Assembly (NCBI GenBank): GCA_036490175.1
Contig: DASXEJ010000002.1
Coordinates: 1 to 64,000, forward strand
From: Pirellulales bacterium
Lineage (GTDB): Bacteria; Planctomycetota; Planctomycetia; Pirellulales; JACPPG01
Length of the DNA stretch: 64,000 nt
Direction: 5' to 3'
A model generated the notes under the pieces. It did not search any database. It was given only the letters and a program-made list of their open reading frames with translations, and was not told the origin of the DNA. Below, piece after piece: positions 10,394 to 28,376 of the stretch. The position numbers were made by a program, and so were the translations under genes. Position 1 is the first letter of the stretch; every line of letters begins with the position of its first letter.

Positions 10394-11171
10394 TTCAAAG
10401 CCCGATATATATTCGAGGAACTATCGGCTCCGTCGGCCGCCGTGGCATCTTGATCGTTGGCACCTTGGCCATCAGGGCCGTCTTGACCGCCCAGCTCAGT
10501 GCGGCCTTTCGAGGGGCGGGGTTGCTCTCGTTCATCGCCTGGGTGCGTTCAGGGTGTCGCACCTCGGTCGGATAGTGGCTAATCCTGCCGACGTGAGTTA
10601 GCGCGGCAGAATGTCACCGTCCCGACATGTCGCTATCCAGGCCTCCGGAGAACGTCCGCGGCGTGTTACCACGTGGGCACGGCAACCGGGGTTGCAACCA
10701 TGTGATCGATCATCAGGTCGTCCTTTGGCCCTGGCCTCGCGACCCGGAGGTCGAGAATCGTCCCCGAGGAAGACCCTGAGAATTTGCGCCGTGGGGCGAT
10801 TTCCATTGACTGCGGTCCAGGCGAGTTCTACGATCCTAGCTGGTGGAGAGGAGAGGCCCTTCCGCCGGAACACACAACTGGGCAGCTAATGGTGTGGATA
10901 TCTCGGCAACGTAGCGCGTAGACGCTTGCGCTCGTTTCTCGTTTTTTCATCCGTACGTTTTCTTCTGCCGTCGCGCGCGGGCATCTTCCTGCGCGCCACG
11001 GTAGGTCACTCAAGAGATCGAGACCCATGTTCGTTTTGCTTTTCTTCGTTTTCCTGTGTGTTGTTATCCGATTCGTTTTCGCGCTCTCGCGCGCACCGGT
11101 TGTGACCGCCGCTTCTTCGGCGCCCGATCGGCTTCTTGGGACAGGTCGAGGCACTTGCGAGGATTCATATC
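10394..11171. other. Intergenic, 778 bp, no gene seen
   Basis: Lies between tRNA-Leu and the pentapeptide-repeat gene. All frames here have shadow-like composition (Arg/Ser/Pro/Cys-rich). A pyrimidine-rich stretch lies around 10930-11000 and again near 11036-11050. It presumably contains the promoter and a long leader for the downstream gene. No RNA family recognised. Confidence 0.4.
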
Positions 11172-14100
11172 ATGTTTCGTCAATTCCGCACTTTTTGTGC
11201 GACATTCCGTCCGGCCGCGCTTGCGGCCACAAAGCCATGCCAGTCATTCATTGTTTCACAGCGCGCCGTTGCGCCAGTCGGAGTTCTGTCCGTTTGCCGG
11301 CGTCAGCGACCACGTTGCAACATCGTCGCCGCAGCCTGCACGACGCTCGCGATGGCGTGGATGTGCGTGGCAGTCGCGCCCTTGCGCGCGCAGATCAATA
11401 GTCTGCAAACAGGCCAGCCGATTCCTGGCACGGCAGGGATCACGCTCGGCCCCGGGATCGATCTATCGGGCTGGAACGCGGCCGGTCACAGCCTGCGGTA
11501 CGGCGATTTTAGCGGCGGCGGTGCGGGCGGGCTCAACTTGGCCGGCGCCACGTTCGACGCCAGTTGGCTTGACAACGCCTCGTTCAATAGCGTAATGGCG
11601 ACGAGCGCCAGCTTCGTCGGCGCCTCGCTCACGAATACAGATTTCGGTTTTAGCACCCTCACCAATGCCAACTTCAATCAGGCCAATCTCACCGGCGCGT
11701 ACGTGGGCTATTCGACGCTCACCGGGGCGAGCTTTAGCGGAGCCAACGTGACGGGCACGGATTTTCGCTATTCGAACCTGACCAGTGGGCAGTTCTACGC
11801 CACGGTCAACTATCAGAATCAGGATCTCACGGGCATCAACTTCTCGGGCGACGACCTGACCGGCTGGAACCTGGCCGGACAGAATTTGAAGAATGGCGGT
11901 TTCTCGAATACGTCGCTGGTGAATGCTGACTTGGCGGGCGCCAACTTCACAGGCGCAACCATCGATGGAGCGAATTTCCACGGCGCGACGGGTTTTACCA
12001 CCGCACAGTTGTATTCCACCGGCAGCTATCAAGCGCACAATCTGGGAGCGATCAGCCTCATCGGCTACGACCTTACCGGCGTGAATCTCGCTGGCCAGAA
12101 TATGCCCGGTTTGAACTTCGGCAGTGCTGTACTGACCAATGCCAATCTCAGCCAGGCCAATCTGACCGGTGGCACGCTCTACTACGCCAACTTCGCAAGC
12201 GCCAATTTGAACCAGGCGAACCTGACCAACGCCAACCTGTATAGCGCGATACTCACGAACGCCAATTTCACTCAGGCGAATTTGACCAATGCCAACCTAT
12301 CGAGCACTACACTTTCGGGCGCCGACTTCGGCCAGGCGGACTTGACCAATGTCAACCTTTCCGGCGCCACGCTCTCGGGCGCCGACTTCGGAAAGGCCAA
12401 CTTAACGAGCGCTAATCTGTCAGGACAGGCACTTGCGGGCATCAACTTTGCCGGTGCCACCATTGCCGGCGCAAACTTTACGGGCGCCACGGGCCTTTCC
12501 AATCAACAGATCTACGGCACCACGGATTATCAGGCGGGAAAGCTTCCGGGCCTCAACTTCTCCGGCCAGGATTTAACAGGCGGAAACTATAGTAGGCAGA
12601 ATCTCGAAGGAACAAGCTTCGCCGGAACCAAGCTCACCGCCGGCAATCTGAGTGGTTCCAACGCCACAAACACCAATTTCACCGGCGCCGACCTCTCGCA
12701 AGCAAATCTTTCGTCGGCAGCATTCACGAACGCTCAACTGCCAAATTCCAACCTGCGCGGCGCTAATGCAGCGAACGCCGTCTTCAACAACGCCAACCTG
12801 AATGGCGCCGACTTAAGCCAGGCGTACTTGGGTAACCAGCCGCCCGGCAGTATGTTCCCTGGCAACTCAACTAGCTTTGTTGGCGCGACGCTCGTTAGCG
12901 CCAAGCTTGTTGGCGCCTCCGCCCCAGGAGCAAACTTCACGAACGCCAACCTCACGACTGCCGATATGTCGCAAGCTGATTTCACCGGCGCGATTTTCAC
13001 CGGCGCGACGCTCACCGGTTCCAACTTTGCCGGCGCGATCGTGGCGAGCGGAAACTTTTCAGCCACCCCGACCTTTACTTCGGCTCAGCTTTATTCCACG
13101 GCCAGCTACCAGAATCAGAATCTGGGCGCGATCAATCTCAGCGGCAACGACGTCACGGGCTGGAATTTTGCCGGGCAAAATATTCCTGGTGCGAATTTCA
13201 GCAATACCCCGAGTCTGACTGCCCAGCAGATTTACAGCACAGGCAGCTACCAGTCATTGACTCTGGGGGCGATCAATCTCAGCAATAACGACATCACGGG
13301 CTGGAACCTTGCCAATCAGAACTTGACGCAAGCCAATTTCAGCGCGGCGACGCTGGCGGGCGTCAATTTCGCCGGCACAACGGTTGCCGGCGCGAATTTC
13401 AATAATACAGGCCTCACAGCCCAACAGCTTTATTCAACGGCCAGCTATCAGGCGAAGTCGTTGTCGACGGCCGTTTTTCCATACGTTGGCATTCAGCTTG
13501 CCGGCGATGTTGTCAGCGGTTGGAACTTTGCCGGGCAAAACCTGTCTGGCGCTAGCTTCGCAGGCGATAACTTAACCAACACGGACTTTACCGGTGCCAA
13601 TGTTAACGGTGTCAACTTTGCCAACACCAATCTCACTGCCCAGCAGCTGTACTCAACGGCCAACTACCAGGCGAAAACGCCCTTCGGGAGGCTTAGCGTC
13701 CTTTTGGGGCAAGGTCCGAATTTTAGCGGTGACAATTTGACGGGTTGGAATCTTGCCGGCCAGAATCTGCCGTTCGCCAACTTCCTTGGAGCAGATCTCA
13801 CGAACACTAATTTTTCCGGAGCAGACCTGCGCCGGGCGTTCAACTATTCGGCATCGTTCTCCGGTGTAAATCTCTCGGATGCAGATCTGCGCGGTACGTC
13901 GATCACTACCTCCACATTGTCCGGGGCATTCACAACCAATGCCATTTTGCCCGTTCCGGGGTTCCTAAACATGGGCCAAATTGGGCCGCTGGCACTTGCT
14001 GCATCGGAGACACTGGTGGTGCGAGAGCCGCCGAGCACACAAACTTTCCCAAACAATACGGTTACAATCAATCAAGGCCTGTCGCTTACATCGACGAGTA

Positions 14101-14492
14101 CGTTGCAAATGCTCATTGGCACCAGCCTCCTTGGCTACTTTGGCATTCCCACTTTCCCTTTCTCCTCTACGATCTATCTCAATCTCGCGCCGGGCAATGT
14201 GCATTTGGGCGGCACGCTGGATCTGGCTTTCGACCCAGCCACGGGCCCACCCTCACTGAGCAGTTTCACGTTGCAACTTTTTAATTGGAATGCCGAGCTG
14301 CCGGCTGGCCAGCATTTCGACCAGATCATCGCCCCCGCAGGATACATCGCGGATACGAGCCAGCTCTACACGACGGGCTACGTCACGTTCACGGCCGTAC
14401 CTGAGCCCACGAGTGCCGTACTGGCCGCGCTCGGCGGCTTTGGCTTGCTCGCGCTTCGACGGCGGACCCGTATTCGATCGAAGCGCGGTTGA
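11172..14492 (+). CDS. Giant secreted pentapeptide-repeat protein with PEP-CTERM tail
   Basis: 1106 residues from ATG 11172, chosen for GAGGA 8 nt upstream. It has an unusually long basic leader (about 75 residues) ending in a hydrophobic stretch and APLRAQ. From about residue 90 to 830 the chain is dominated by A(N/D)Lxx/A(N/D)Fxx pentapeptide repeats, the right-handed quadrilateral beta-helix fold. These are organised in about seven longer modules, each opening with (A/Q)QLYSTxSYQ and closing with DLTGWNLAGQNL. After the repeats comes a ~160-residue beta-rich domain and a PEP-CTERM tail (VPEPTSAVLAALGG, then LRRR). Most pentapeptide proteins are cytosolic. An exported, surface-sorted one is more likely a structural or adhesive fibre than a DNA-mimic. 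Confidence 0.9.
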   Translation: MFRQFRTFCATFRPAALAATKPCQSFIVSQRAVAPVGVLSVCRRQRPRCNIVAAACTTLAMAWMCVAVAPLRAQINSLQTGQPIPGTAGITLGPGIDLSGWNAAGHSLRYGDFSGGGAGGLNLAGATFDASWLDNASFNSVMATSASFVGASLTNTDFGFSTLTNANFNQANLTGAYVGYSTLTGASFSGANVTGTDFRYSNLTSGQFYATVNYQNQDLTGINFSGDDLTGWNLAGQNLKNGGFSNTSLVNADLAGANFTGATIDGANFHGATGFTTAQLYSTGSYQAHNLGAISLIGYDLTGVNLAGQNMPGLNFGSAVLTNANLSQANLTGGTLYYANFASANLNQANLTNANLYSAILTNANFTQANLTNANLSSTTLSGADFGQADLTNVNLSGATLSGADFGKANLTSANLSGQALAGINFAGATIAGANFTGATGLSNQQIYGTTDYQAGKLPGLNFSGQDLTGGNYSRQNLEGTSFAGTKLTAGNLSGSNATNTNFTGADLSQANLSSAAFTNAQLPNSNLRGANAANAVFNNANLNGADLSQAYLGNQPPGSMFPGNSTSFVGATLVSAKLVGASAPGANFTNANLTTADMSQADFTGAIFTGATLTGSNFAGAIVASGNFSATPTFTSAQLYSTASYQNQNLGAINLSGNDVTGWNFAGQNIPGANFSNTPSLTAQQIYSTGSYQSLTLGAINLSNNDITGWNLANQNLTQANFSAATLAGVNFAGTTVAGANFNNTGLTAQQLYSTASYQAKSLSTAVFPYVGIQLAGDVVSGWNFAGQNLSGASFAGDNLTNTDFTGANVNGVNFANTNLTAQQLYSTANYQAKTPFGRLSVLLGQGPNFSGDNLTGWNLAGQNLPFANFLGADLTNTNFSGADLRRAFNYSASFSGVNLSDADLRGTSITTSTLSGAFTTNAILPVPGFLNMGQIGPLALAASETLVVREPPSTQTFPNNTVTINQGLSLTSTSTLQMLIGTSLLGYFGIPTFPFSSTIYLNLAPGNVHLGGTLDLAFDPATGPPSLSSFTLQLFNWNAELPAGQHFDQIIAPAGYIADTSQLYTTGYVTFTAVPEPTSAVLAALGGFGLLALRRRTRIRSKRG

Positions 14493-17701: not shown

Positions 17702-17872
17702 CGAGCCGGCGGCGGCGGGTTACACTCGATGCCTTCAGCAGCACCCACGAAATACGTCCGTGTTGCCGCTACTGTGTTTGATCGGTCGAACGGGAACCCG
17801 CCCGCCAGGTCGCCCAAGCCGCTACATTTGTCGCACGCCGCCCGCAGATTCACCCGCCCGAAAGCCCATCCG

Positions 17873-19423
17873 ATGCTCAAGATTCATTCGACGATTAAAA
17901 TCCTGGCGACGCTGATCGCCACGGCATGCGGATCCGCAGCGCCCTGTTTGGCCAAGGCTCTCGAGCCGCTTTCGCCAGGGGCCCGCCCCTTGGTTGTCGC
18001 GCCCGGTGGATACACGCGACAAGCACCCGTCAATACGGCGCGGCCGCTGGCAATGGCCGGCGAAGACGATCTCGATTACGTCGAACTAGAAATACGCCGC
18101 ACCAAGGACGGACAACACGTTGTTTTTAATACCGACCAGATCGACGGTAAAACATCGGGCGCTGGCGCCGTCGGTGATCACACGCTGGCCGAGTTGCAGG
18201 CGCTGGATGCCGGCAGTTGGTTCGCCAAGCGCTTTGCCGGGGCCAAGGTGCTTTCGCTCGTCGAAGCTCTTGATCTGGCCAAGAACCACACTCGGTTAGT
18301 GCTGGTCTGCCAAGACGTCGAGCCGGCGCAGCTTGTCGAAGAAGTGAACACTGCCGACATGCAGGATCGGGTAGCCGTCACCGGCACCGCAGACGTTATC
18401 GCGCGAATCGCGCACGCGGCGGCTGGCAAAATCGCAATTCTCGGTCGACCGCCAGCCAGTGAGGACATCATTCAATGGGCCGCCCAGACAAAGCCCAATG
18501 CCATCTTGCTGCCGGCCGCGCTCGCCACTGCCGAAATCTGCCGGGCATTGCACAACTCGACAATGTCCATCGTGGCCGATTGTTGCAGCGGCCAAGACAA
18601 TCACGAAATGTGGGAAAAGTTGACAGCCGCGGGCGTGGATGCCGTCCGCACGAATTTGCCAGAAGAGTTCCTTGTCGATGCGATCTCGCGGCGCGTCGAC
18701 AAGCGGCCCGTGCAGATCGCCGCCCATCGCGGCCAGTTGCGTTATGCGCCGGAGAACACGGTGGCGTCGCTCGAAAAAGCGGACCACATGCTGGCCGACT
18801 TCGTCGAGATCGACGTGCAAACGACCGGCGACGGGGCATTTTACCTGCTACACGACGGTACGCTCGACCGTACTACGGATGGCCACGGGCGGGTTCGCCA
18901 GAACACAGCTGAGACGCTCGGCGGGCTGGACGCGGGGAGTTGGTTCGGGCTCCCCTTCGTAGGCACGCCGGTTCCCGAATTGCAAGAATACCTGGCTCAC
19001 TTCCCGCCGCAAATGGGATTGTACTTCGACGCCAAGGACATCACGCCCGAGGCTCTGGCAGCGGCGGTCGCGCGGCATGGACTGGTCGAACGCACGGTCG
19101 TTTATCAGGGCCCGGTATACCTTGAGAAATTGAAGCAGATCGATCCGCGTATCCGGCTGTTGTCTCCTGTCGGCACCGTCAGCCACGTCGACACGCTGGC
19201 CAAGCGATTGGCTCCCTATGCCGTCGATACGCCCTGGAAGCTGCTGTCTCGCGACTATATCGCGCACTGCCACGAACTCGGAATCAAAGTCTTCTCCGAC
19301 GCCAAGGGGGATACCACCGTCGACGGCTACGCCCAGGCGATCGAATGGGGCATCGATTTGATTCAGACCGATCATCCCTTGCGACTGTGGCGAGCGATCG
19401 AACGATTGGCGGCCAAGCCGTAG
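17873..19423 (+). CDS. Exported tandem-domain glycerophosphodiester phosphodiesterase-like protein
   Basis: 516 residues from ATG 17873, which opens a signal peptide (LKIHSTIKILATLIATACG to CLAKA). Two GDPD TIM-barrel units follow. The C-terminal one (about 278-510) is intact: AAHRGQLRYAPENT (His285-Arg), VEIDVQTTGDG and LLHDGTLDRTTDG provide the two catalytic His and the metal-binding Glu/Asp. The N-terminal one (about 38-265) is degenerate: HRG is replaced by APGG, E-x-D by E-L-E, and the second His is lost (VFNTDQIDG). Expected role: hydrolysis of glycerophosphodiesters in the periplasm, releasing glycerol-3-phosphate. The dead unit may bind substrate or stabilise the fold. Both units share the DAGSWF signature, pointing to internal duplication. 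Confidence 0.88.
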   Translation: MLKIHSTIKILATLIATACGSAAPCLAKALEPLSPGARPLVVAPGGYTRQAPVNTARPLAMAGEDDLDYVELEIRRTKDGQHVVFNTDQIDGKTSGAGAVGDHTLAELQALDAGSWFAKRFAGAKVLSLVEALDLAKNHTRLVLVCQDVEPAQLVEEVNTADMQDRVAVTGTADVIARIAHAAAGKIAILGRPPASEDIIQWAAQTKPNAILLPAALATAEICRALHNSTMSIVADCCSGQDNHEMWEKLTAAGVDAVRTNLPEEFLVDAISRRVDKRPVQIAAHRGQLRYAPENTVASLEKADHMLADFVEIDVQTTGDGAFYLLHDGTLDRTTDGHGRVRQNTAETLGGLDAGSWFGLPFVGTPVPELQEYLAHFPPQMGLYFDAKDITPEALAAAVARHGLVERTVVYQGPVYLEKLKQIDPRIRLLSPVGTVSHVDTLAKRLAPYAVDTPWKLLSRDYIAHCHELGIKVFSDAKGDTTVDGYAQAIEWGIDLIQTDHPLRLWRAIERLAAKP

Positions 19424-19510
19424 TTCGTTGCACGGACTTTTTGTTTGCCGGCGTGTCCGCTGGAATGCGTCGACGTTCCGATACGATACTCACTCGCGTT
19501 GCGAAAGAGC

Positions 19511-20401
19511 ATGCCCCAGACTCGACCACGACTGCTCGTTATAGGCGCCGGCGGCTTTGTCGGTTCGCAAATCACACGCACCGCTGCCGAGGCCTGCGAT
19601 GTTGTGGCAGGACTGCGCCGCGCCGCGGGCGAGGCGTCGAAATCGGTGTCGATCGACATCACACAGTCCGACAGCGTGCGCGCGGCGTTCGATGCGGTCC
19701 GCCCTGATGCCGTAATTCTTACGGCGGCGATGGCCGACATAGATCGATGTGAGCAGGAACAGGTCCTTGCCGAGCAAGTAAACTATTTTGGGCCGTTGCA
19801 CGTAGCGAGAGAGTGTCAACGTTTGGGCGCGCGATTATTGTTTACGTCGACCGATGCCGTGTTCGACGGCACATTGGCCGCGTACCCAGAGGATTCCCAG
19901 CCTACGCCGGTGAATTTTTATGGCCGCACCAAGGCCCGTGCCGAGGCCGTCATTCAAGAACTGCTGCCCACTGCCGTGATCGTGCGATTTTCGCTGGTGT
20001 TGGGGCTTTCCCCGACGCCGGGCAATAACTCTTACGTCAACAAGCTGGCCGATACGTTGCGCGCCGGGCGCGAAGTACGGTCGCCCAGCTATGAGTTTCG
20101 CAATCCGATCGACGTCGGCACGTTGGCCCCACTTTTGGTGAAACTGCTACGGCAAGATGCGGCGGGCATTTTCCATATCGGCTCATCGGATAAGATGTCT
20201 CGCTACGAACTCGCGCGGCGGCTGGCTGTAGAGTTAGGGGCACCACCAGAGCTTGTCCGCCCGCAGACCGAACCGATCGCCGGACGCGCACCGCGCGGCA
20301 CGGACGACTTTCTGGTTTGCGAGCGACTCCCCCATTTGATCGGATTCCGCGTTCCTACCTGCGATGAGGTCATAAAGCGAGCCGTGCATGGAACTGCCTA
20401 A
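19511..20401 (+). CDS. SDR-family NAD(P)-dependent sugar reductase, RmlD-like
   Basis: 296 residues from ATG 19511; GAAAGAG lies just upstream. Extended short-chain dehydrogenase fold: glycine motif VIGAGGFVGSQI at 10-21, TSTDAVFDG near 110, and the catalytic YxxxK as FYGRTKARAE near 132-141. It resembles dTDP-4-dehydrorhamnose reductase (RmlD) and related NDP-sugar or free-sugar reductases. It is the first gene of an operon: its last 14 bp overlap the start of the aminotransferase gene. Substrate unknown; the neighbours suggest that it reduces or epimerises a keto-sugar. Confidence 0.87.
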   Translation: MPQTRPRLLVIGAGGFVGSQITRTAAEACDVVAGLRRAAGEASKSVSIDITQSDSVRAAFDAVRPDAVILTAAMADIDRCEQEQVLAEQVNYFGPLHVARECQRLGARLLFTSTDAVFDGTLAAYPEDSQPTPVNFYGRTKARAEAVIQELLPTAVIVRFSLVLGLSPTPGNNSYVNKLADTLRAGREVRSPSYEFRNPIDVGTLAPLLVKLLRQDAAGIFHIGSSDKMSRYELARRLAVELGAPPELVRPQTEPIAGRAPRGTDDFLVCERLPHLIGFRVPTCDEVIKRAVHGTA

Positions 20402-21578
20402 GGCGATTCACGAACTGGAATTCAACCACGGGTCCGCCTATGGCGAGGAAGAAGCCGCGGCTCTGCGCGACGTACTGGCCGCTAGCGCCCCCTCATGCGG
20501 CCCACGCGTCAAGCAGTTCGAAGAAGCGTTCGCCACCTACTGCGGCACGCGTTATGGCTTGGCCGTGGCCAACGCGACGATGGGGCTCGAACTGGCCATG
20601 ATCGCGGCCGGTGTGGGCCCTGGCGATGAAGTGATCACGACGCCGCTGAGTTGGATTTCCACGGCCAATGCAATCGCGGCACGCGGGGCCAAAGTCGTGT
20701 TCGCCGACATCGACCCCCGCACCCTTAATCTCGACCCGGCCGCAGTCGCTGCCAAGATCACGCCCCGAACGAAGGCGATCTTACCGGTCCATTTGTACGG
20801 TCAATGTTGCGACATGGACGCGCTGGTGGCCCTGGCTAAGCCGCGTGGCATTCGGATCGTCGAAGATTGTGCCCACGCTCCCGGCGGCGAATACAAGGGG
20901 CGCAAGGCCGGAGCCTTGGGAGACATTGGCGTCTTCAGCTTTCATCAGCAGAAGAATATGGTCACGCTTGGCGAAGGTGGCCTGGTTACCACAAACGATC
21001 CCCAACTCTACGAGCGGCTCCTTTCCTATCGTTCGCTGTGCTGTTTGACTTACGATCCCAAGGGAAAGTATCTGCCGATCGACGAGCGCGAACGCCCCAT
21101 GGGCAAGCGCTATTGGATGTTGGACTTCGCCGACGTGGGATACAACTTCCGCCTGACCGACGCGCAGGCCGCCGTGGGGCTGGCACAATTAGCCAAACTC
21201 GATGGCTTCAACGCGCGCCGCCGCCAGATCGCGGCTCAATATGACCAAGGACTGGCTGGCATTCCTGGGCTGGGCCTGCCGTACGTCTCTGCGGACGTGG
21301 TACATACTTTCCACATTTATTGCGTGCTACTCGGTGACGAGTTCCCGTTGTCGAAAGAAGATTTCATGTGGGAGCTGTATACGAAGAAACGGATCAAGGT
21401 CTGGTCGCATTACATGCCCATGCACTTGACGACCGCGTATCGCCAGTTGGGACATAGCGAGGGAGAATGCCCCATCGCCGAAGCACTTTTCGCGCGCTAC
21501 GTCAGCCTGCCAATTCATCCGCGGCTGACGAGCGACGGCATCGACTATCTGATTAATTCGATTCGGTCGCTGGCATGA
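20388..21578 (+). CDS. DegT/DnrJ/EryC1/StrS family PLP-dependent aminotransferase
   Basis: 396 residues; ATG 20388 lies inside the upstream gene, showing translational coupling. It transfers an amino group, usually from glutamate, to a keto-sugar or keto-cyclitol. Visible marks are ANATMGLELA (phosphate-binding turn), VVFADIDPRTLNLDP, VEDCAHAPGG (Asp160 pairs the pyridine nitrogen), and GVFSFHQQKNMVTLGEGG with Lys189 as the Schiff-base lysine. Full family length. The last 4 bp (ATGA) overlap the kinase start. Substrate not predictable, but coupling to a sugar kinase suggests a free or phosphorylated amino sugar. Confidence 0.92.
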   Translation: MELPKAIHELEFNHGSAYGEEEAAALRDVLAASAPSCGPRVKQFEEAFATYCGTRYGLAVANATMGLELAMIAAGVGPGDEVITTPLSWISTANAIAARGAKVVFADIDPRTLNLDPAAVAAKITPRTKAILPVHLYGQCCDMDALVALAKPRGIRIVEDCAHAPGGEYKGRKAGALGDIGVFSFHQQKNMVTLGEGGLVTTNDPQLYERLLSYRSLCCLTYDPKGKYLPIDERERPMGKRYWMLDFADVGYNFRLTDAQAAVGLAQLAKLDGFNARRRQIAAQYDQGLAGIPGLGLPYVSADVVHTFHIYCVLLGDEFPLSKEDFMWELYTKKRIKVWSHYMPMHLTTAYRQLGHSEGECPIAEALFARYVSLPIHPRLTSDGIDYLINSIRSLA

Positions 21579-22984
21579 AAGACTTTCCCACCACGGTGCG
21601 CGGACTGCAGCGAGACGAGCAACTCTTCTCGCTCGATTCCTCGATTTTTATTGCCCGCAGTCCTGGGCGGCTCGACTTGATGGGGGGCAACGACGACTAT
21701 ACCGGCGGCATGGTTTTCGAAGCGACCATCCGCGAGGCCACCTGGGCCGCCGTACAAGGGCGCCGCGACGGCCGCATTGTTCTTGTTAATCCCCAGCTTG
21801 CCGAACAGGGTTGGCAACACACCGTCGAATTCGCGCTCGACGACCTGACGGACGAATCACGTGTCCGCGAGCTGGTGAATCGCGATCCTACGATTCGTTG
21901 GACGGCCTATGTGCTGGGGCTCTTCTATTGGCTTCGCTGGCGGGCGCCCAAGCGCGTGCGGCAGGGAGCCACCGTGTACATCGAGTCCGATGTGCCCTTG
22001 AACAAGGGGGTCAGCTCGTCGGCCGCGATCGAAGTTGCCGTGATGAAGGCCGCGGCCAGCGCATACGGCATACCGCTCGAAGGAGTCGCATTGGCCGAGG
22101 CCTGCCAGTGGGCCGAAAACGTCATCGCCGAAAGCGCCTGCGGCATCATGGATCAAATCGCGGTCGTGCTTGGCGACGAAGGATGCGTGCTGCCACTGGT
22201 ATGTCAGCCCTGTGTGCCACAACCGCTGGTGCGGCTGCCAGCGGATCTGACCTGCTGGGCCATCGACTCCGGCGTGTCGCACGCCGTGACGGGCATTGAA
22301 TACGAAGCGGCCCGGGCGGCTGCCTACATGGGTTATAAACTGATCTGTGACTGGGAAGAGATCGCCGTGCGTCCCGATGACGCGTCGCCGATTCCGCGAT
22401 TCACCGATGACCGCTTTGCTGGATATCTCGCCAATCTTTCGCCGTCGCTCTTTCGCGAGCGATTCGAATCTAGGTTGCCCGACCGGATGAGCGGCGCCGA
22501 ATATCTGCGTGTCGCTCATGAGCACGTCGATCCCTTTACGAAGGCGCGACCAGAAATTGACTACGCCGTGCGGGCCTGTACGCGTTACGCCGTCGAAGAG
22601 AATGAACGCGTGCGCATGTTTGCCGAGTTGGCCCGCGGCGCCGATGCGACGGACGCGCGCTCGGCGGCGATCCTGATGGGCGAGTTGATGTATCAATCGC
22701 ACTATGGCTATACCGAGACCGGTCTCGGAAACGAGGCGACCGACCTGCTGGTCCGGCTGGCGCGCGAGCAAGGTCACGCGCGAGGCATCTTCGGCGCGAA
22801 AGTTACCGGCGGTGGCGCCGGAGGAACGGTGGCCGTTTTGGGCTTAGCGGACAGCGAGCCGGCCTTCGAATGCCTCGTGAAGCACTATGCCGAGGCGCGC
22901 GGCGCGCGACCCTACGTGTTCCGCGGCAGCTCGCCCGGCGCCGATCGCTTTGGCGTGATCGAGCTTGCCCCAAGTGCTTCGTAG
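21575..22984 (+). CDS. GHMP kinase resembling the kinase domain of plant L-arabinokinase
   Basis: 469 residues, start ATGA-overlapped with the aminotransferase stop. The three GHMP motifs are present: sugar-binding ARSPGRLDLMGGNDDYTGG region at 27-45, ATP loop VPLNKGVSSSAAIEVA near 139-154, and KVTGGGAGGTVAVLG near 409-423. From memory, the pattern PGRLDxMGGxxDYxG, VCQP near 210, IDSGVSHAV and GELMYQSHYGY follows plant ARA1 L-arabinokinase more closely than galactokinase (which has GEHTDYNGG). ARA1 phosphorylates C1 of L-arabinose; here the sugar is unknown. The N-terminal glycosyltransferase-like half of ARA1 is absent. Last gene of a three-gene operon. Confidence 0.88.
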   Translation: MKDFPTTVRGLQRDEQLFSLDSSIFIARSPGRLDLMGGNDDYTGGMVFEATIREATWAAVQGRRDGRIVLVNPQLAEQGWQHTVEFALDDLTDESRVRELVNRDPTIRWTAYVLGLFYWLRWRAPKRVRQGATVYIESDVPLNKGVSSSAAIEVAVMKAAASAYGIPLEGVALAEACQWAENVIAESACGIMDQIAVVLGDEGCVLPLVCQPCVPQPLVRLPADLTCWAIDSGVSHAVTGIEYEAARAAAYMGYKLICDWEEIAVRPDDASPIPRFTDDRFAGYLANLSPSLFRERFESRLPDRMSGAEYLRVAHEHVDPFTKARPEIDYAVRACTRYAVEENERVRMFAELARGADATDARSAAILMGELMYQSHYGYTETGLGNEATDLLVRLAREQGHARGIFGAKVTGGGAGGTVAVLGLADSEPAFECLVKHYAEARGARPYVFRGSSPGADRFGVIELAPSAS

Positions 22985-23004: not shown

Positions 23005-23295
23005 TTCACCACGGAGACACTGAGGCACGGAGAGGATGAAGAGAAATACGTTAGAACCACGAATCACACGGATTGCACGAATTCGAAGAGGTGGGCGATC
23101 TCGCATCGACTCGACCGCAATTTTCCAGTGTTCGGGGAGGTCACACCATTGCATTCCTACGCGTCGTTCCTATGTATTGCTCCTACGCCTGGTGTCGATG
23201 TCTTGTTCCTATCCGTGTCATTCGTGTGATTCGTGGTTAAACCGAATTCCTACACGGCCGTCAGTCTCTCTCCGTGCCTCCGTGTCTCCGTGGTG
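23005..23295. repeat. Nested inverted repeat in the gap between two plus-strand genes
   Basis: Two pairs of inverted arms, one inside the other. Outer arms 23006-23034 and 23267-23295 match at 28 of 29 positions (unit with CACGGAG words). Inner arms 23055-23082 and 23211-23238 match at 24 of 28 (unit with AACCACGAATCACACG). About 130 bp of unrelated sequence lies at the centre. The 342-bp gap (22985-23326) holds no gene. A further copy of the inner unit lies at 55363-55385. From memory, CACGGAG/ACGAATCACACG words of this kind recur in intergenic regions of many planctomycetes and other soil bacteria. Confidence 0.85.
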
Positions 23296-23326
23296 AGCTA
23301 TAAAAGAACCAAAGCAAGTCGTTCCC

Positions 23327-24310
23327 ATGCCGCATGATGGACCAACTCCGCCGGTCGATCGCCGCTCGCGAGGGCTGTGGTTTTTGTTTTTGTTGGCACT
23401 GGCCAGCTTGATGTGGTCGGCCCAAGGAACCGCCGTCAAGTTTTTGGCACCCGCGGACGCCGCCGTTGAAGGGACCGATGCGCCGCCGACGCTGGGACCG
23501 ATCACGATCACGTTCTTGCCCTTCTATGTGGCCACGGCTTTGCTGTTGCCATTATTGGTGCGCTTACGGCGTCGCGATAAAAAGACTTCCTGGCCGACGC
23601 CGCGCGACTGGTTGCATTTCGCCATCGCCGGTATCGCTGGGCAGGTACTGGCACAGTTAGGGATGACATGGGGAGTGATGAAGTCGCTGGCGTCGAACGC
23701 CGCGGTGCTCAACCTGCTGATCCCGGTCTTTAGCGCCCTGCTGGCATCGCTGATGCTCGGCGAGCGGCTAACCCGGCTGCGGATTTTATGCCTGCTCATC
23801 GGCCTTATCGGAGTCGCGCTAATGTCCGTTAACGACCTCGAGCAAAGCGACTTTCTCGAACGCGGCTATCTGAGGGGCAATTTGTTGATTCTGCTGGGCT
23901 GCCTGGGCTCGTCGTTTTACAACGTCTATTGCAAGGGGCTGATGACGAAGTTTCACGAAGTCGAGATTCTCATCTACAGCTATATCACAGCTTCGCTCGC
24001 CAGTTTGCCGCTTCTGCTATGGTGCGAGCCGCTCAATCCGGCCGCGTTCGCCGCGCTCGACGGACGAGGCTGGGCCGCCCTGGCCTTTCTGGCCGTGTTC
24101 ATGTACACGGTCTCGATGCTGCTTTTCTTTTATGTGCTGGAACACATTCCCGTCACCGTGGCCTCGGCGGCGCTGTATCTGGTGCCGCTATTTGGCGTGC
24201 TGTTGGCCAGCGCCCTGCTGGGGGAACGGATGAGCACGCTCGCGCTCGCCGGGGCGGGCGTGGTGCTGGCAGCAACGGTGCTCATCATGCGTTACGACAG
24301 CGCCGTCTAA
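23327..24310 (+). CDS. EamA/DMT-family transporter
   Basis: 327 residues from ATG 23327. Ten hydrophobic segments are visible in two five-helix EamA halves, the first at about 18-175 and the second at 188-322. The typical end-of-half signatures are present: LNLLIPVFSALLASLMLGERLT and ASAALYLVPLFGVLLASALLGERMS. A hydrophilic insertion (about 43-62, PADAAVEGTDAPPT) follows the first helix. These are drug/metabolite transporters that export amino acids, purines or other small molecules. Substrate unknown. The upstream gap contains the nested inverted repeat. Confidence 0.92.
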   Translation: MPHDGPTPPVDRRSRGLWFLFLLALASLMWSAQGTAVKFLAPADAAVEGTDAPPTLGPITITFLPFYVATALLLPLLVRLRRRDKKTSWPTPRDWLHFAIAGIAGQVLAQLGMTWGVMKSLASNAAVLNLLIPVFSALLASLMLGERLTRLRILCLLIGLIGVALMSVNDLEQSDFLERGYLRGNLLILLGCLGSSFYNVYCKGLMTKFHEVEILIYSYITASLASLPLLLWCEPLNPAAFAALDGRGWAALAFLAVFMYTVSMLLFFYVLEHIPVTVASAALYLVPLFGVLLASALLGERMSTLALAGAGVVLAATVLIMRYDSAV

Positions 24311-27400: not shown

Positions 27401-28216
27401 TCAGTTCGCCACCGGGGCGGCCGGCGCAGCCTTGCCCGTCATTTCTCGCTCTATCTTCAGGAACACGTCCCCATGATCCAGGTTCACCATGTCGGCCTTC
27501 AATTCCACGATACGGCGGAAGGCAGCCGGATCGTTCTTGGTTTGCAAAACCATGATTTTTAGATTTCGCTCGCGGCAGGCCTCGCTCAATTCCGGGCTGA
27601 GTTGCCGCAGCCCCGTTTCAACGATGTTGGCCTGATATCGTTCGACAGCATCGCGCACGTCGTCGACGTTTCCAACGTTCACTTTCAGCGGCAGTTTCTT
27701 GTCGAGCTCGCGGAATTCCAGTGCCCGATCGGCCCGATCGAACCAGAAGAAGCAGTCATTTTCCATCCCCACGTCGTAGACCATGGCAATCAGCTGCTTA
27801 AGGTCTGCGTTCTTAACGTCGAAATAGACCTTGATCTTCCCCTTGATCGCCCGCAAGTAGGGATCGAGCCGTGGCACCTTTTCACCGGCAAACTTCTTGT
27901 TGAACCAGCTGCCCGCGTCGAGCTCGTCGATTTCGGAGCTGGTTAGTTGCGAGAGAAACCCTTTGCCGTTAGTCGTGCGGGTTAGCCACGGATCGTGCAG
28001 GAGGTACATCACCCCGTCCTTGCTGGTCCGCACATCGACCTCGACGTACGCGACGCCCCAATCGATACAAAGCTGGGTGGCAGCCATGGTATTCTCAGGC
28101 GCATACTCATTGGCGCCACGATGGCATACGACCTCGACCGCATCTACATGCGCCGCCGCAAGCAAGCTCGCTGCGAAGATCCAGCAGAACGACAATCTGT
28201 GCCAAAGGCGGTTCAT
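27401..28216 (-). CDS. Exported glycerophosphodiester phosphodiesterase
   Basis: 271 residues from ATG 28216 (AGGAG 5 nt upstream), with a signal peptide ending HVDAVE. It is a single intact GDPD barrel: VCHRGANEYAPENT, VEVDVRTSKDG, LLHDPWLTRTTNG, DAGSWF and KVYFDVKN. It hydrolyses glycerophosphodiesters outside the cytoplasm. It shares the DAGSWF(N/A)KKFAG patch with the tandem GDPD at 17873-19423, so the two are related but this one has no degenerate extra domain. Short Ala/Pro tail. Divergent from the BtuF-like gene across 160 bp. Confidence 0.92.
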   Translation of the reverse strand: MNRLWHRLSFCWIFAASLLAAAHVDAVEVVCHRGANEYAPENTMAATQLCIDWGVAYVEVDVRTSKDGVMYLLHDPWLTRTTNGKGFLSQLTSSEIDELDAGSWFNKKFAGEKVPRLDPYLRAIKGKIKVYFDVKNADLKQLIAMVYDVGMENDCFFWFDRADRALEFRELDKKLPLKVNVGNVDDVRDAVERYQANIVETGLRQLSPELSEACRERNLKIMVLQTKNDPAAFRRIVELKADMVNLDHGDVFLKIEREMTGKAAPAAPVAN

Positions 28217-28376
28217 AACGGCTCCTGTAGTTTCCACGACGGCTGGTGACCTTGGCATTAGAATGTCATTATTGTGCGCTGGCGGCAGGCGTGGCGAAAG
28301 GGTCTCAACATGCCAACCAGTTGTCGCCAAATCGTGTGGCGGCCGGCCGGCTATCCAGATCGCTAGAGATACAACC

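Follow-up and report, generated by a model that had tools for sequence, protein, structure and literature searches.

The kanosamine operon of Bacillus subtilis, ntdABC, combines a DegT aminotransferase with an oxidoreductase and makes no use of nucleotide activation. A comparable set of genes is found in the stretch of DNA analysed here (the window), which comprises 64,000 nucleotides from a Pirellulales bacterium (GenBank assembly GCA_036490175.1, contig DASXEJ010000002.1, positions 1 to 64,000). The set consists of RED, an RmlD-like short-chain reductase of 296 amino acids (19511..20401); AT, a DegT/DnrJ/EryC1/StrS aminotransferase of 396 amino acids (20388..21578); and KIN, a GHMP sugar kinase of 469 amino acids (21575..22984). 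The likeness to ntdABC is partial: NtdC is a Gfo/Idh/MocA protein and not a short-chain dehydrogenase/reductase (SDR), a phosphatase is present instead of a sugar-1-kinase, and the ntd operon is biosynthetic. All three genes of the window lie on the + strand, with overlaps of 14 bp (RED/AT) and 4 bp (AT/KIN); open reading frames, overlaps and Pfam families agree with the three-gene operon proposed in an earlier reading of the sequence (the original prediction). That reading knew of no described pathway of this composition, and no description of the trio or its pathway was found in the open-access literature searched, absence there being no proof. RED, AT and KIN each add a new member to a known superfamily; taken together, they look like a sugar-use operon of a new variety.

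When 84,980 prokaryote species genomes were scanned with KIN, 70 loci emerged, mostly 46-83% identical. They come from Planctomycetota, Hydrogenedentota, Verrucomicrobiota, Acidobacteriota, Armatimonadota, Bacteroidota, Chloroflexota and Spirochaetota, and also from Syntrophaceae. RED, AT and KIN are contiguous, in the same order and on the same strand, in 38 of the 40 loci with three full-length genes (the window counted), an arrangement found in Planctomycetota, Acidobacteriota, Armatimonadota and Bacteroidota; the exceptions are one locus with KIN upstream of the RED-AT pair (L032) and one in which RED is inverted (L038). Pairwise distances between the proteins are correlated (KIN-AT, r 0.87; KIN-RED, r 0.90; AT-RED, r 0.97), the best of 500 permutations giving 0.35. 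Because the order recurs in 37 of the 39 other full-length loci, and because the distances are so strongly correlated, the arrangement is not a product of chance. The strongly conserved linkage thus supports the claim, made originally from the overlaps, that the three genes serve one pathway. The projected RED/AT overlap of 11 bases in planctomycetes is also present in Acidobacteriota and Armatimonadota; Bacteroidota mostly have short gaps. (Many apparent open reading frames opposite KIN in GC-rich loci are shadow frames, and these were left out of account.) The module is rare within Planctomycetota: a sample of 294 genomes held no other AT of the trio type, and the relatives of KIN found there were 36-45% identical. 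What emerges is an uncharacterised module of known enzyme superfamilies, kept together across several phyla.

Each enzyme resembles described proteins, yet none attains its curated NCBIfam equivalog cut-off, and the Bacteroidota versions likewise fall short. RED (Pfam RmlD_sub_bind, 188 bits) is, like the dTDP-4-dehydrorhamnose reductase RmlD, an SDR with a Y-x-x-x-K motif (169 bits). Its score to the rmlD profile TIGR01214 (168.7 bits; 187.6 for the Bacteroidota version) lies below the cut-off of 224.05, and unlike RmlD it has no RmlA, RmlB or RmlC alongside: no rmlABC neighbours were seen at the trio loci. The protein starts at ATG 19511 (an alternative TTG at 19445 would make it longer) and carries G-x-x-G-F-x-G together with S113, Y137 and K141, the last three invariant in 43 homologues. 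AT belongs to its superfamily both by profile (Pfam PF01041, DegT_DnrJ_EryC1, 385 bits) and by its pyridoxal phosphate (PLP) lysine, K189 within FSFHQQKNMVTLGEGG, which is invariant in 44 homologues. The DegT fold and this lysine are shared with PseC, ArnB and perosamine synthetase (250-314 bits; the latter two are the nearest solved structures, at ~250 bits), but AT lies under every equivalog cut-off (for PseC 313.9 bits, or 339.4 in the Bacteroidota version, against 423.5), and its partners are a sugar-1-kinase and a reductase, with no dehydratase. Judged by sequence, the catalytic residues of RED, AT and KIN are intact.

The described protein closest to KIN is AbGHMP (PDB 9ulx/9uly), an ARA1-like GHMP kinase for which our literature search found no paper, and which KIN matches over its full length at 375 bits. 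The two share PGRLDxMGG, VPxxKGVSSSAA, CGxMDQ, IDSGxxHAVTG, GELMYQSH and GAKITGGG. As originally noted, KIN has plant L-arabinokinase-type motifs (it carries PGRLDLMGGNDDYTGG, IDSGVSHAV and GELMYQSHYGY) and is without the N-terminal glycosyltransferase-like half: its 469 amino acids contain GHMP kinase and galactose-binding domains only (Pfam GHMP_kinases_N, 59 bits; GalKase_gal_bdg, 35 bits). The description of KIN as ARA1-like nevertheless stands only in part. In a tree in which AbGHMP serves as the nearest proxy for plant ARA1 (itself not included), KIN falls inside a clade of 70 with support of 100/100, apart both from planctomycete galactokinases and from the ARA1-like kinases, which form the neighbouring clade; AbGHMP falls in the latter, alongside GalT-linked planctomycete relatives, and has GGIADYSGS where KIN has GGNDDYTGG. 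The pocket motif separates the groups: GEHTDYN in galactokinases, GGIADYSG in the ARA1-like group and mostly GGNDDYTGG in the KIN clade, in which GGNDDY or GGNVDY was found in 69 of 70 members (one was not read), four kinases having GGNVDYTGG (L029, L035, L037 and L079). Members of the KIN clade thus have a polar N, and usually also a D, where the ARA1-like group has the hydrophobic I-A.

Galactokinases (GALK1, 1pie and 2cz9) share with KIN the fold (TM-score 0.66-0.73, query-normalised) and the catalytic Asp and Tyr, but their best score is 82 bits, and a branch of more than two changes per site lies between them and KIN in the tree, where the grouping with ordinary galactokinases that the original prediction had named as fatal to it does not occur. 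Against the galactokinase profile TIGR00131 KIN scores 108.9 bits and its relatives 119.8-122.2, short of the cut-off of 226.65. The AlphaFold2 model of KIN (mean predicted local distance difference test score, pLDDT, 90.8) has matches in the folds of GalNAc kinase and galactokinase; 9ulx was not among the matches of this fold search. R32, D41, D193 and Y243 are conserved, and the ATP loop is kept too. KIN is therefore something other than an ordinary galactokinase, and defines a new galactokinase-like clade. Galactokinases of known structure contact the sugar 6-hydroxyl through the E and H of GEHTDY; with G38 and N39 in their place, KIN should differ in sugar recognition at C5/C6.

The clade divides into two branches: B, with 51 members including that of the window, and A, with 19 from Chloroflexota, Spirochaetota and Syntrophaceae. 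AT is present in the locus for 43 of the 51 in branch B. The remaining eight are one locus cut at a contig end (L024), one long-branch member whose genome has no AT at threshold (L085) and six loci with no linked pair (L028, L030, L031, L033, L034 and L056). All six of these genomes carry AT elsewhere (443-463 bits, 50-52% identity) and RED elsewhere (159-183 bits), the two being mutually adjacent in several. In the branch A genomes tested, DegT proteins were all generic (≤253 bits), RmlD matches were weak (≤117 bits) and there was no linked RED-AT pair. The original prediction had set its case on the trio not being separable in most genomes: in the kinase branch of the window it is inseparable, whereas in branch A (19 of the 70 loci) KIN occurs without RED and AT.

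The conserved neighbourhood proved wider than was first noted. KIN is followed by an EamA/DMT-family transporter (23327..24310, + strand; Pfam EamA, 143 bits) and RED is preceded by a two-domain GDPD-like protein (17873..19423, + strand; Pfam GDPD, 131 bits), both conserved in relatives. EamA homologues 57-75% identical lie directly after KIN in 17 loci from Planctomycetota, Acidobacteriota, Armatimonadota, Hydrogenedentota and Verrucomicrobiota, and with a weaker one in L085 (43%) the number of other loci with this arrangement is 18; the EamA protein is probably the transporter of the pathway. The GDPD gene, which we infer to be a member of the operon, is directly upstream of RED in four planctomycete loci (L025, L027, L113 and L114). 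Its reading frame opens at 17729, the start at 17873 having been picked by eye; the translation has a likely N-terminal signal sequence, and the HRG/E-x-D motifs are kept in the C-terminal domain and missing from the N-terminal GDPD domain. A second GDPD gene (27401-28330) lies within 10 kb, so that the window holds both this gene and the tandem of a degenerate and an intact domain. A candidate GDPD beside the unlinked AT of L131 was dropped, being a beta-propeller match.

Elsewhere the partners differ. In Bacteroidota a FucP-like carrier of the major facilitator superfamily (MFS) precedes RED in 24 loci, and a PMM/PGM-type mutase in which the TASHNP, DGDGDR and EESGH motifs are intact is often beside RED (16 loci), as it is in one Hydrogenedentota locus. 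Before the unlinked RED-AT pair, L129, L130 and L133 have a GlpT/PgtP-like MFS carrier and L131 a mutase. Branch A loci contain an ATP-binding cassette (ABC) importer of the 2-aminoethylphosphonate/polyamine type, a FGGY kinase and a DhnA-type aldolase, several adding an AraA-like isomerase or a DUF4432 protein; the likeness of the importer to such systems fits an amine-bearing substrate. Most loci, then, have a linked carrier of a presumed importer type, be it EamA, FucP-like or GlpT-like MFS, or ABC. In no phylum examined does a nucleotidyltransferase or a dehydratase recur near the trio, and glycosyltransferases are found only as isolated neighbours. In Chloroflexota kinase loci a metallo-beta-lactamase-fold protein (like RNase Z and cyclic phosphodiesterases) stands beside a second ABC importer (L075:5890-6642, L083:2849-3703, L086:8607-9359 and L089:6706-7479).

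In both branches KIN also adjoins a protein of ~400-500 amino acids with no Pfam match above cut-off (L073:3536-5002, L029:1718-2998, L033:6311-7702 and relatives). The protein is modelled (pLDDT 88.5) as an alpha/alpha-barrel of the six-hairpin fold, nearest to AGE/cellobiose 2-epimerases and GH76, the match to the GH76 profile being weak. An apparent signal peptide is present in Acidobacteriota, Verrucomicrobiota, Armatimonadota and Hydrogenedentota, and absent from the Chloroflexota form, which would be cytoplasmic. Since the conserved residues are acidic (D157, D165, E279, D280, E337, D405 and D409), only one histidine is invariant and the location is secreted, we favour a glycosidase over an epimerase. 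The analysis thus brings to light a hydrolase-like family that has no Pfam entry. One member (L028:4988-7960) is fused to an extra region of 500 amino acids that itself has no Pfam match.

Because importer-type carriers and hydrolases recur and nucleotidyltransferases and dehydratases do not, we favour a reading in which the trio is the core of a pathway by which a free sugar, probably an amino(-deoxy) one, is taken up and salvaged or catabolised, so entering central metabolism; we hold this at a little under an even chance. It bears out the salvage-type route from free sugars that was the original suggestion, and the catabolic gene sets of branch A support it. If it is correct, then a secreted hydrolase (the six-hairpin protein or GDPD) would liberate the sugar, and EamA, or elsewhere a FucP-like or GlpT-like MFS carrier, would import it. 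AT may then transfer the amino group onto 2-oxoglutarate to give a keto sugar, the keto group of which RED would reduce; KIN would phosphorylate the anomeric position to give a sugar-1-phosphate, and a PMM/PGM-type mutase could shift the phosphate so that the product enters glycolysis. As 4-keto sugars are what RmlD and the nearest relatives of AT (PseC, ArnB and perosamine synthetase) act on, C4 is by analogy the favoured position of action. The more general claim – a widespread and undescribed catabolism of amino-deoxy sugars, with deamination of the free sugar by a DegT enzyme, reduction of the resulting keto sugar by an RmlD-like enzyme and phosphorylation at C1 by a new galactokinase-like clade, all without passing through nucleotide sugars – is put forward tentatively, as one we rather doubt than expect. 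It would tie sugar aminotransferases to uptake and salvage, their usual tie being to nucleotide-sugar synthesis.

Several observations weigh against this reading. Enzymes of the AT and RED families are familiar chiefly from the biosynthesis of nucleotide sugars, and the function of the present members is a prediction; EamA carriers often export, import by the carriers found here being likewise predicted. Branch A kinases work without AT and RED, and the amino group may therefore not be on the substrate of KIN. A role for the extra Asp of GGNDDYTGG in amine binding is weakened by the four trio kinases that have V at this position. In the genome of the window no six-hairpin protein is found at E≤1e-5. 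The PMM-type mutase, rejected as a universal partner, is absent near the trio of the window, and the genome has no strong homologue of that subtype.

The main rival is biosynthetic: KIN would salvage a free sugar as its 1-phosphate, a housekeeping nucleotidyltransferase would convert this to a nucleoside diphosphate (NDP) sugar, RED would oxidise C4 and AT would aminate it, yielding an NDP-4-amino sugar, comparable to UDP-L-Ara4N or perosamine, that would go into a surface glycan. The use of nucleotide sugars by the nearest AT families and by the RmlD family speaks for such a route, as does the fact that GalT, which converts sugar-1-phosphates to UDP-sugars, adjoins the ARA1-like sister kinases of planctomycetes. 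We nonetheless judge it unlikely, if the most serious of the alternatives: the recurrent partners are importer-type carriers and secreted hydrolases in place of the activating, dehydrating and glycosyl-transferring enzymes it would lead one to expect, the sister branch of kinases lies in catabolic operons, and reduction is the usual direction of RmlD-type enzymes. Kanosamine offers a different precedent. Keto sugars in free or phosphorylated form are known substrates of some DegT enzymes, such as 3-keto-glucose-6-phosphate for NtdA, and the EamA family has exporters among its members; the trio might thus make a free, kanosamine-like amino sugar, an antibiotic or signal for which EamA would be the exporter, with KIN serving in self-protection or priming. 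Replacement of EamA in other phyla by FucP-like and GlpT/PgtP-like carriers, which belong to importing families, and the sharing of the gene set by unrelated lifestyles and phyla leave this only a slim chance.

Finally, KIN could simply serve these bacteria as galactokinase or L-arabinokinase, with RED-AT a separate sugar module adjacent by accident. The genome of the window has no other GalKase_gal_bdg protein, and the sister ARA1-like kinases of planctomycetes do adjoin GalT in six loci (L103, L105, L106, L109, L111 and L112), two of which (L105 and L106) add a GalE-like epimerase, suggesting that these sister kinases are an unrecognised galactokinase of the Leloir pathway; given the adjacent GalT, their identity as L-arabinokinases is not established. 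Within the KIN clade, however, GalT is never a neighbour (nor was GalE seen at its loci), the pocket motif is different, and KIN co-occurs with AT and RED even when they are unlinked, all of which makes a plain galactokinase or L-arabinokinase improbable. For the favoured reading, uptake and use of a free sugar, cultured hosts in which the substrate could be sought are Dyadobacter frigoris and Flavihumibacter profundi, with Pelolinea submarina for the sister branch.

Two further features of the window deserve mention. Between KIN and EamA (23006-23296) lies a palindromic repeat of ~290 bp, with terminal arms of 29 nucleotides that are 97% complementary and inner arms of 46 nucleotides; genome-wide its end sequence has ~20 copies, the reversed control 0, and it looks like a small non-coding mobile repeat. 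Upstream of the operon, positions 11136-14492 encode a protein of 1118 amino acids with many pentapeptide-like repeats (A-D/N-L-x-x) and a PEP-CTERM-like C-terminal end.

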